A DNA stretch of 64,000 nt from Opitutales bacterium. GTDB lineage: Bacteria > Verrucomicrobiota > Verrucomicrobiia > Opitutales > JABSRG01. How positions within the stretch are numbered: the stretch's first letter is position 1; every line of letters begins with the position of its first letter. Location: positions 1-64,000 of the forward strand of contig JANQKZ010000060.1 in the NCBI GenBank assembly GCA_028280845.1. The letters are read 5' to 3'. The translations under genes and the position numbers were made by a program. The notes below the pieces were generated by a model that saw only the letters and a program-made list of their open reading frames with translations, searched no databases and was not told where the DNA came from. Shown one piece after another: positions 11,166 to 14,769 of the stretch.

Positions 11166-12059
11166 ATGCAACCGTTTATTCGATTCGTCTATTCCCTCCT
11201 GTTCGGGGGCATCCTGCTTTTGTCCTCTGGCTGTGGTCTCTTCCGGGAAGACGATCCCGATGACATTCCACCATTGGCCCCTGAGGAAGAGACCATCACC
11301 TTGGCAGACCAGCGCCTGTTGGAAATATACGAACGCCAGCAGGAAATCATGACCCGGTATGGGGAAAACCCGGATAACTACAGTCAGTCTACTATGGAGA
11401 TGCGGGTAAACCAGGTGGTCAGTTCCTACCAGGCCTTCCTCGCTGACAATCCAGAAGATGTAGAGGCCTACATCCTATTTGGAAAATTCCTTATTTCAGT
11501 TGGGCAATGGGAAATGGCCATTCGCCAATACCTGATCGCCGATCGCCTCGACCCGACCCTTCCTGTTCTCAAGCAACAGATCGGTAACTACCTGGCTGAA
11601 ACCGGGCGCTACATGGCCGCCCTCCCCTATTTTCTCAACGCCACCGACCTCGCCCCGGATGAGGCTTTGTATTTCTATCAACTCGGATGGTTGCTCTATG
11701 AATACGGCGAGCAGTTTATCGGGGATGGTTTTTATGAGCGAACCACCTTGGAATCCCAAATGATGACTGCGTTCCGGAAAGCCGTAGCGCTCGACCCGGA
11801 CCACCTGCCATACCAGCGGACCTACGGAGAAGCATTTTACCTCCTGGAGGAACCCAATTGGGAGCTTGCCTTCGATGTATGGAACCAATTGCTGCCCAGA
11901 GTGGAAGATCCGCTCGACCGCCAGGCGATTCACCTCCACCGTGCGAGGGTCCTGGCTTATCTGGGAGAAAAAGAAATTGCCTTGAGTATTATGGACAGCA
12001 TCGACGACCCTGCTCTGTTAACTTCGAAAAATAAGGTTCTGGAGGAGATCCGGAACTAA
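11166..12059 (+). CDS. TPR-repeat lipoprotein
   Basis: 297 residues. A signal peptide with lipobox LSSGC puts the lipidated cysteine at residue 23. The mature part holds several tetratricopeptide-like helical repeats (for example residues about 75-215, with the pattern AYILFGKFLISVGQWEMAIRQ). TPR lipoproteins usually serve as protein-protein scaffolds at the outer or inner membrane. The site-2-protease homologue starts 22 bases downstream, so the two may act together. Confidence 0.85.
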   Translation: MQPFIRFVYSLLFGGILLLSSGCGLFREDDPDDIPPLAPEEETITLADQRLLEIYERQQEIMTRYGENPDNYSQSTMEMRVNQVVSSYQAFLADNPEDVEAYILFGKFLISVGQWEMAIRQYLIADRLDPTLPVLKQQIGNYLAETGRYMAALPYFLNATDLAPDEALYFYQLGWLLYEYGEQFIGDGFYERTTLESQMMTAFRKAVALDPDHLPYQRTYGEAFYLLEEPNWELAFDVWNQLLPRVEDPLDRQAIHLHRARVLAYLGEKEIALSIMDSIDDPALLTSKNKVLEEIRN

Positions 12060-12081: not shown

Positions 12082-12732
12082 ATGAATAGTTCTCCCGACC
12101 TCATGCAGGGGTTGCTCCTCTACCTGATCCTCCTGGCCAGCGTGTGCTTGAGAGAGTGGGCCCAAGCCTGGGTCGCGGACCGCATGGGAGATTCCACCCC
12201 CCGCATGGACGGTCGGACAAGCCTCAACCCGGCCAATCACATCGACCCCCTCGGTACGGCCATCTTTCCCCTCATCTTCATCTTCCTCCTGGGCTCACAG
12301 ACTCCCTTTGGGTGGGGGCGTCACCTCTACATGAACCCCGACAATTTCCGGAATCCCACCAGCGGCGAAATCTATGCACGCCTGGCCGGACCCGCCTGTA
12401 ATTTTCTCATCGCCCTGGTGGCAGCCATCATCGGAGGACTCACGTTTAATAGTGTCCCCCGGCTCTATGAGTTAATGTTCATGTTTATCGGGATCAATAC
12501 CACCCTCATTATCATCAACCTGCTGCCCGTTCCTCCCCTCGACGGAGGTTATATCCTCAAGGCCGTGATAAAGATGTCGGAAGAACAATTCCTCAACCTC
12601 GCCCGCTTCTGTTTTTTTATCCTGCTCGGGTTGTTTCTCTTTCCCCCCACTGCCCGGGTCATTCAACTCGGTTTCGCCTTCTTTAACGGGCTCTTCCTGC
12701 GGGTTATGAATATAGCGGCAGGCGCAGGTTGA
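12082..12732 (+). CDS. Site-2 protease (M50) homologue lacking the HExxH histidines
   Basis: 216 residues, six hydrophobic segments. The family landmarks are present: GRTSLNPANHIDPLGT, PFGWGRHLYMNPDNFRNP, LAGPACNFLIA and PPLDGG with D154. The zinc-binding HExxH motif, which should be at residues 24-28, reads REWAQ here, so both histidines are replaced (R24, Q28) while E25 is kept. With two of three zinc ligands gone it should not be an active protease. A pseudoprotease acting on membrane substrates or partners is the likely role. It follows a TPR lipoprotein and is convergent with metW. Confidence 0.85.
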   Translation: MNSSPDLMQGLLLYLILLASVCLREWAQAWVADRMGDSTPRMDGRTSLNPANHIDPLGTAIFPLIFIFLLGSQTPFGWGRHLYMNPDNFRNPTSGEIYARLAGPACNFLIALVAAIIGGLTFNSVPRLYELMFMFIGINTTLIIINLLPVPPLDGGYILKAVIKMSEEQFLNLARFCFFILLGLFLFPPTARVIQLGFAFFNGLFLRVMNIAAGAG

Positions 12733-12762: not shown

Positions 12763-13380
12763 CTACCTGGGCTTCCGACTTAGGTCATAGATGACATAGC
12801 CCGAAAACAACTCGGGCCAGAAGGAACACTCCGATTCCCAGTCCGCCCCAAGCGCCACCCGGCGGTGGATGGTGATATCCAAATCAACGCAAAACTCCTC
12901 AAACTCGGCCAGAGAAAATGGATTTGCCGGCCGTCGCTCAAACCATTTATCGGGAAAGACATCGTTGCGGATCCTCCGCCCGAGCCTGAGGTGACTGAGC
13001 CGGTTGCGCCAGTAGCTGAAATTGATAAACCCAACGGTAAGCCGCTCTCCCACACGAAGCCCTTCTTCGAGGGTCTCCCGGGGATTCTCCAGCTCTTCCA
13101 CGGTCCGGGAGCAGAGCACATGGTTAAAGGTATTATCCGGAAACGTTTTTAAATAGGTCAGTACATCTCCCTGGTATACCGAGACCCCGCGCTTCACCGC
13201 CGCCTGAATTTTGGATTGAGAGATATCCACCCCAACTCCGAATACCTGCTTCGTCTTGATCAGATGCTCAAGCAAGATACCCCGGCCACAACCAAGATCC
13301 AGGACACGCGACCCCGGTTCCACCCATCCACTGATGATCTGGAAGTCCACATGACGGCGCTGTTTGGTCTTGGAGCTCAT
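12763..13380 (-). CDS. metW: Methionine biosynthesis protein MetW
   Basis: 205-residue class I SAM-dependent methyltransferase-fold protein. The SAM-binding motif VLDLGCGRGILLEHL is at about 23-37. Its ATG overlaps the metX TGA (ATGA), the pairing seen in many Proteobacteria, where MetW supports homoserine acylation by MetX. That context is the main support for the name. Confidence 0.9.
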   Translation of the reverse strand: MSSKTKQRRHVDFQIISGWVEPGSRVLDLGCGRGILLEHLIKTKQVFGVGVDISQSKIQAAVKRGVSVYQGDVLTYLKTFPDNTFNHVLCSRTVEELENPRETLEEGLRVGERLTVGFINFSYWRNRLSHLRLGRRIRNDVFPDKWFERRPANPFSLAEFEEFCVDLDITIHRRVALGADWESECSFWPELFSGYVIYDLSRKPR

Positions 13381-14552
13381 GACTGCACTAGATTGGGAGA
13401 GACCAGGAAACCCCGTACCAGATCATATAGCTCAGGTGCATGCAGCAGGAAGGAATCATGCCCCATTTCCATCTCCAGTTCCGCATAGGAGGCCTGCTTT
13501 CCAGCCTGGGTCAAGGCATGGACGATATCTCGGTTCTGGGAGGGAGGAAAGAGCCAGTCCGATTTAAACCCAATGATCAGGGATCGGGCTTTCACGATTT
13601 CAAATACCCGGTCCAATCGCCGATCAGAATCACGCCCGGGCAGATCAAAGAGGTTCAAGGCACGGGTAAAATAAAGGTAGGTATTGGCATCAAACCGATT
13701 CACAAAGGACTGCCCCTGGTAGCGTAGATAACTCTCCACCTCAAACTCCACGTCGAACGGATCCTGGTTCGCACCACCCCCTTCGGATGCTCGCCGACTC
13801 CGCCCAAATTTCTGAGCCATGCCTTCGTCGGACAGGTAGGTAATATGCGCCATCATACGGGCCACGGCCAACCCAACATCAGGCCCTTCATCAGGAAGAT
13901 AACTCCCTCCCCGCCATTTGGGGTCGGTAATGATCGCCTGCCGGCCTACTTCATCAAAGGCAATGGCCTGGGCACTTTGGCAAGCCGTGGTGGCCATCGG
14001 GACGATCCGGTCCACCCGGTCGGGAAACTGTACCGCCCATTCCAATACCTGCATACCCCCCATACTTCCCCCGATCACGGCATGAAGCTTATCAATGCCA
14101 AGATAATCCATGAGTTGGGCCTGGGCTTTCACCATGTCTTCAATCGTAACCCGAGGGAAACTCAACCCATACGGCCGCCCCGTCTCCGGATTGATGGAAG
14201 ATGGCCCCGTGGACCCTTGGCATCCACCGATACAATTCGTGCAGATGACAAAATACTCCCGTGTATCCACGGCTTTCCCCGGACCGATAAAATGATTCCA
14301 CCAACCCACTTTGCGGTCGGTCACGCCATGAACGCCCGCGCAATGATGATCGCCACTCAGGGCATGGCAAATCAGGATCGCGTTGGAATGGCTGTCATTC
14401 AATCGCCCATAGGTTTCATAGCGAATCGTGATTCCTGGTAACCTGGAACCATTGTGAAACGTAAAGGGCGCGGACAATAAAAAATCCTGCGGGGTTACCA
14501 AACCAACCTCGCCTTCTTCTAGCGACTGATACTCATCCCCTGATGGATTCAT
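13377..14552 (-). CDS. metX: Homoserine O-acetyltransferase
   Basis: 391 residues from ATG at 14552; alpha/beta-hydrolase that activates homoserine by acylation in methionine synthesis. The nucleophile elbow is GGSMGGMQ and the C-terminal catalytic histidine lies in MGHDSFLLH. A longer frame begins at 14639 but its first 29 residues do not resemble the family; that upstream ATG is itself followed by AGGAGG. The acyl donor (acetyl or succinyl) cannot be assigned safely from sequence alone. It is the first gene of metX-metW. Confidence 0.92.
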   Translation of the reverse strand: MNPSGDEYQSLEEGEVGLVTPQDFLLSAPFTFHNGSRLPGITIRYETYGRLNDSHSNAILICHALSGDHHCAGVHGVTDRKVGWWNHFIGPGKAVDTREYFVICTNCIGGCQGSTGPSSINPETGRPYGLSFPRVTIEDMVKAQAQLMDYLGIDKLHAVIGGSMGGMQVLEWAVQFPDRVDRIVPMATTACQSAQAIAFDEVGRQAIITDPKWRGGSYLPDEGPDVGLAVARMMAHITYLSDEGMAQKFGRSRRASEGGGANQDPFDVEFEVESYLRYQGQSFVNRFDANTYLYFTRALNLFDLPGRDSDRRLDRVFEIVKARSLIIGFKSDWLFPPSQNRDIVHALTQAGKQASYAELEMEMGHDSFLLHAPELYDLVRGFLVSPNLVQS

Positions 14553-14769
14553 AAAACCGTTATTGCAGTGGATTCTGGCAGATTCAAAAGTAATAACTGT
14601 GTCGTATTCCGAACCGCACTCCAGAAAATTCCTCCTCATTGGCCCTGCTCGGTCCGGGACCGCATGGCCGACTCAATCCCGATGGGATGCCCTCCACGAT
14701 CCTTCGCTGCTCTAAGGATTGCCAGAAATGTATATCTGAAATGGTCTCCCGACTGCTCCGCGACGCGGA

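Follow-up and report, generated by a model that had tools for sequence, protein, structure and literature searches.

The window, the whole stretch of 64,000 nucleotides that was analysed, belongs to the genome of an Opitutales bacterium (G000; 62 contigs, 4.79 Mb). Its forward strand carries a gene related to the site-2 proteases (S2Ps) directly downstream of a gene for a TPR-repeat protein, followed by two genes on the reverse strand. The features relevant to this analysis are:

11166..12059, + strand: gene for a TPR-repeat protein (Pfam TPR_17 and others), directly upstream of the S2P gene with a gap of 22 bases
12082..12732, + strand: gene for the predicted S2P-fold pseudoprotease, 216 residues (open reading frame; Pfam PF02163; AlphaFold2 model)
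12151..12165, + strand: REWAQ replacing HExxH (R24, E25, Q28), codons AGA GAG TGG GCC CAA
12238..12240, + strand: H53 of NPxxHxDPxG, common to members with and without the zinc motif (100/100 living rows; 18/18 of the R..Q/PPLPG family)
12322..12327, + strand: H81-L82 in place of the P-V of living members (of 100 living rows, 97% have P and 98% have V; G166 has H-I)
12541..12543, + strand: D154, the third zinc ligand position, kept in the window (replaced by E in G166 and by P throughout the family of 18)
12763..13380, − strand: metW-type gene, downstream neighbour (open reading frame; neighbourhood)
13377..14639, − strand: metX-type gene, downstream neighbour (open reading frame; neighbourhood)

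Here and below, we call rows with an intact zinc motif living and those that have lost it dead.

An S2P homologue without its zinc motif

A sequence-only reading of this locus had described an uninterrupted S2P gene behind a TPR gene, with REWAQ in place of HExxH and with PPLDGG, NPANHIDPLGT and the landmarks of the fold preserved. All of this was borne out. The reading frame is open throughout, residues 24–28 are R-E-W-A-Q, PPLDGG, NPANHIDPLGT and GWG are present in the translation, and Pfam recognizes TPR repeats in the upstream gene. The Peptidase_M50 profile matches the window protein with 44.8 bits, above its curated cut-off of 27.2 and hence sufficient to place it in the M50/S2P family by sequence homology; the match covers residues 129–173 only. 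A search against NCBIfam with the same protein gave no match. Among solved structures, the top phmmer match was MjS2P (E 1.4e-5).

An AlphaFold2 model built on 6 sequences reached a mean pLDDT of 81.4 and a pTM of 0.77. In a Foldseek search, 3b4r was the best hit and the sole row below 0.001 (E 5.6e-4), with a low TM-score of 0.43. In a second look with VIA-align, the nine best rows were all S2Ps (Z 8.8–12.4) and the next row scored 6.1; the individual values were 11.0 for MjS2P (3b4r), 8.8 for SpoIVFB (8vjl) and 12.2 for RseP (7w6x). The window protein is thus predicted to have the S2P fold, which its model shares with these three structures. MjS2P, SpoIVFB and RseP are proteases with a zinc site, and S2Ps in general are known as signalling proteases.

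In the available text of a review on bacterial S2Ps, HExxH and the LDG motif are attributed to all members (PMC10202637). The window protein retains the Asp of the latter (D154, in PPLDGG) together with E25 and lacks both His residues of the former, which makes it a pseudoenzyme in the sense of an enzyme homologue without catalytic residues. In the tree set, all 100 rows with an intact motif have His at the columns of R24 and Q28. Since the motif aligns with that of the relatives without gaps, these residues were genuinely substituted rather than altered by a frameshift. Moreover, the R24 codon AGA is three base changes away from either His codon (CAC, CAT), so R24 cannot be explained by a single base error. 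A second deviation, absent from the sequence-only reading, lies in the conserved block GW(G/A)(K/R)PV, where the window has H-L at P81-V82. Together with the H-I of G166, this is a derived feature common to both.

Distribution and origins of the altered motif

Matches to the S2P were found at E 1e-8 in 169 of the 372 genomes of the order and in 78 of 384 of the class. In family f13, 81 of 200 genomes match and 119 show no match at the sensitivity of the search. The only other genome of the window's own family that was compared (G001) has no orthologue, and neither a TPR nor an S2P gene was seen beside its metX-metW pair. A scan of genome contigs with the window protein recovered a single relative, L038, from an alphaproteobacterial MAG with HExxH.

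A first census covered L038 and 144 rows of the order; 10 of these 145 had altered motifs. The full census draws on 252 genomes and comprises 253 distinct rows, of which 226 have H, E, H and D in place and 27 are altered: f13, 58 intact and 21 altered; f16, 14 and 3; f21, 2 and 1; f27, 8 and 1; all other families in the order combined, 94 and 0; elsewhere in the class, 49 and 1; L038 is intact. Excluded before counting were another M50 protein (L033), second copies from included genomes (L339–L342, L060, L061 and others) and candidates of 60 bits or less, which represent other M50 types; L062 (G069), with intact HEYGH and PPLDG, is likewise not among the 253. Also outside the census are G444 (partial) and G379 (weak), both of f13, and roughly 25 of the 169 genomes of the order with a match, although the later f13 and class searches may have taken in a few of these.

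The most frequent altered form, R..Q with PPLPG or PPLPS, accounts for 18 rows from seven genera of f13 (the family of 18). RAWAQ with D occurs in L310, and RQWAK with E (PPLEG) in L048 of genome G166. Two rows from one genus, L317 (G397; REWAR/PPLDG) and L318 (G376; REYAH/PPRDG), are possible intermediate stages in the loss of the active site. The remaining forms are REFGR with PPLDG retained in L078 (G114) and L141 (G126) of f16, YEFGH in L105, HEWGR in L137, and QRYCQ with PPLEG in L300 (G646), which belongs to another order of the same class, sits on a very long branch and is apparently another loss of the zinc site. In both f16 rows, L078 and L141, D37 of the GD motif is replaced by Cys.

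We built trees from alignments stripped of the HExxH region, the LDG motif and GWGKP. The family of 18 holds together in these trees, with a SH-aLRT value of 99 for all 18 in a quick tree of 130 rows and with 100/100 for the 13 of them contained in a careful tree of 52 rows. The window protein pairs with G166 (84 in the quick tree; 99/96 in the careful tree, whose bootstrap had not fully settled). Both branches are long, that of G166 extremely so with 2.3 changes per column, and the pairing could therefore partly reflect long-branch attraction. L310 and two g105 rows group weakly in the careful tree (80/80). One f13-like clade of 62 rows (97, quick tree) holds the family of 18, the window with G166, and L310 with the g105 rows; its remaining members are living.

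In a first tree that kept the motif columns, all R..Q/K rows known at that stage, seven in number, grouped together (SH-aLRT 84). With these columns removed and more rows added, the R..Q/K rows fall at two or more places. The trees do not show a single origin of all R..Q forms, and AU tests do not reject a single R..Q clade (p 0.40 with 16 rows; p 0.21 with the two g105 rows added). On these trees, f16 (REFGR) and G646 (QRYCQ, PPLEG) appear as separate losses. In the f16 inactivation, Arg again took the position of the first His.

The sequence-only reading had asked whether the R/Q pair is conserved in a clade, and had held that HExxH in all close relatives would point to a recent mutation or a sequencing error. 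The pair is invariant in the family of 18. Among the genomes compared, the refuting condition does not hold, since the lineage paired with the window, G166, shares R24. The majority of relatives (226/253 rows) nonetheless keep HExxH and D.

Conservation and gene neighbourhood

Within the family of 18, R24 and Q28 are present in 18/18 rows, the Arg being encoded by AGA, AGG, CGC, CGT or CGG. Four positions that are each conserved in 98–100% of 100 living rows are changed in all 18: E25 and N107 are lost, N146 is D and D154 is P. In contrast, G36, D37, H53 and D55 are each retained in 18/18. NG86 dN/dS ranges from 0.015 to 0.309 in 27 dead pairs and from 0.016 to 0.251 in 49 living pairs; only pairs with an identity above 70% and a dS of 0.1–2 were counted, and the pairs are non-independent, most dead ones coming from one genus. 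Between G326 and G187, the dead S2P gives 0.11, compared with ∼0.14 for the neighbouring TPR gene and ∼0.13 for prmC.

The window protein itself has kept 32 of 36 conserved non-catalytic columns, whereas only 57 of the 168 other columns (34%) show the majority residue. Living rows keep on average 0.95 of the conserved non-catalytic columns, with a minimum of 0.78. The earlier proposal of a kept pseudoprotease rather than decay therefore finds direct support in the family of 18, with its invariant R/Q and dN/dS far below 1, and indirect support for the window through these 32/36 columns and the pairing with G166 obtained without the motif columns. The wider family thus makes the stronger case for retention, the window protein the weaker one.

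The gene order TPR - S2P - prmC (prmC in f13) is found in dead and living genomes alike, and metW, metX, yebC and yidC lie close by in several of them; all five names are those we take these neighbours to bear. From this common order it follows that the dead copy has the genomic position that a living copy holds elsewhere. The living small S2Ps of G034 (L008) and G247 (L040) resemble the window in this order, in 47–49% identity and in the same fold landmarks; they differ in having kept HEWAHA and PPLDG.

The TPR and S2P genes of the window are presumed to share one transcript. Of the altered f13 genomes with TPR coordinates, 19 in all, 18 have 8–34 bases between the end of the TPR match and the S2P match; in the nineteenth, G429, the two lie on different contigs. 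No TPR homologue was detectable in G166 within 13.5 kb around the gene. In f13, the TPR gene is near universal (194/200 genomes) and the S2P gene is not (81/200): TPR is core and S2P optional. For this reason, co-loss of the two genes as evidence of a partnership is unsupported.

A predicted zinc-free membrane protein and its possible role

Because both His residues are gone, zinc would not be held and cutting would not occur; judged by its residues, the window protein very probably performs no zinc proteolysis. The dead S2P is also likely to have been kept by selection, as the substitution patterns suggest. That it is the partner of the TPR protein is a more tentative proposal, drawn from gene order. 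As a whole, we somewhat favour the explanation that the gene encodes a selected S2P-fold membrane protein that does not cut zinc-dependently and serves the TPR protein as a non-cutting partner. Such a protein would keep the cleft with which the ancestral protease bound substrates or partners, and could act as an anchor, a client holder or an assembly factor in the membrane. The Arg may place a permanent positive charge in the pocket vacated by zinc, and in the window R24 could pair with E25 or D154.

The closest known case is the plant protein EGY3. In the available text of PMC9355673, it is called the only pseudoenzyme homologous to the S2P family and confined to plants, and that of PMC10978774 describes it as lacking HExxH and helping to stabilise other chloroplast proteins. 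Like the window protein, EGY3 is a conserved S2P homologue without HExxH; for EGY3, an action other than cutting is reported (PMC10978774, PMC9355673, as far as their available text goes). Unlike it, EGY3 belongs to the plant chloroplast, and the window protein groups with bacterial relatives in the trees. We know of no link of EGY3 to a TPR operon. No bacterial pseudo-S2P was found in a literature search that lay largely outside subscription journals, and the window lineage would be a bacterial counterpart to the protein that PMC9355673 singles out. The loss of the motif with apparent retention of the protein suggests that it serves some purpose that does not involve cutting. A bacterial lineage that is zinc-free, under selection and in the slot of living orthologues would amount to a natural separation-of-function experiment, and swaps of dead and living copies between related bacteria could reveal which functions of the S2P fold are independent of cutting.

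We also consider, as a speculation that is rather unlikely to hold in full, that an intramembrane metalloprotease repeatedly became a zinc-free membrane receptor within one order, with Arg for the first zinc His in f16 and, independently, in the f13-like lineages to which the window belongs, and often Gln for the second. The Arg-filled pocket would then be a new functional site that holds a client or the TPR partner in the membrane.

These readings have to be weighed against others. The assembly is in 62 contigs, but a sequencing or assembly error has a negligible chance of explaining the motif: R24 alone would require three base changes, the alignment is ungapped, and R stands at the same column in G166 and the family of 18. 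Codon distance, alignment and other genomes likewise rule out a frameshift and a recent single mutation. Under relaxed selection ahead of gene loss, the protease would have become dispensable in these bacteria and the window copy would be a relic not yet broken. Loss is indeed frequent, given the absence of a match from 119/200 f13 genomes and from the sister genome G001, and the branches of the window and G166 are long; the intact frame, the 32/36 columns, the three changes in the R24 codon and the invariant R and Q with dN/dS well below 1 in the related 18 make a relic improbable. The window keeps E25, H53, N107, N146 and D154, and one could imagine a metal enzyme that uses other ligands (E25, Q28, H53 or D154) or another metal. 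In the family of 18, which shares the R..Q pair, E25, N107, N146 and D154 are gone, and an Arg in the site would be hard to square with a metal cation, so that we regard such an enzyme as very improbable.

The sequence-only reading had compared the protein to iRhoms, which, according to the available text of PMC3149277, keep the fold of an intramembrane protease without its catalytic residues. The window protein shares this feature, but iRhoms are rhomboids and not S2Ps, and the regulatory action is reported for iRhoms; the likeness is one of analogy only. A corresponding trans-acting regulator would bind substrates of living RseP-type or other M50 proteases and shield them or hand them over. 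Binding in the cleft without chemistry would fit, and the window genome also encodes an RseP-type protein with HExxH, which is the only other match of the window protein there; a near-full-length, strong RseP-type match was also found in the other altered-motif genomes tried, G060 excepted. However, the dead copy replaces the living one in its slot rather than standing beside it, and 17 of the 18 family genomes have no second profile match at E 1e-10, the exception being G153. The same RseP-type match is also present in living-copy genomes, so that nothing pairs specifically with deadness. We therefore consider a regulator of this kind unlikely.

A second, active paralogue, which the sequence-only reading had proposed to look for, was not found in the window genome. 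The candidates with HExxH, the RseP-type protein and two larger M50 proteins, are of different kinds. The latter two (L003 and L004, on contigs C32 and C1) are encoded by frames 735 and 721 codons long and combine HEMGH/HEFGH with RFDGYY.
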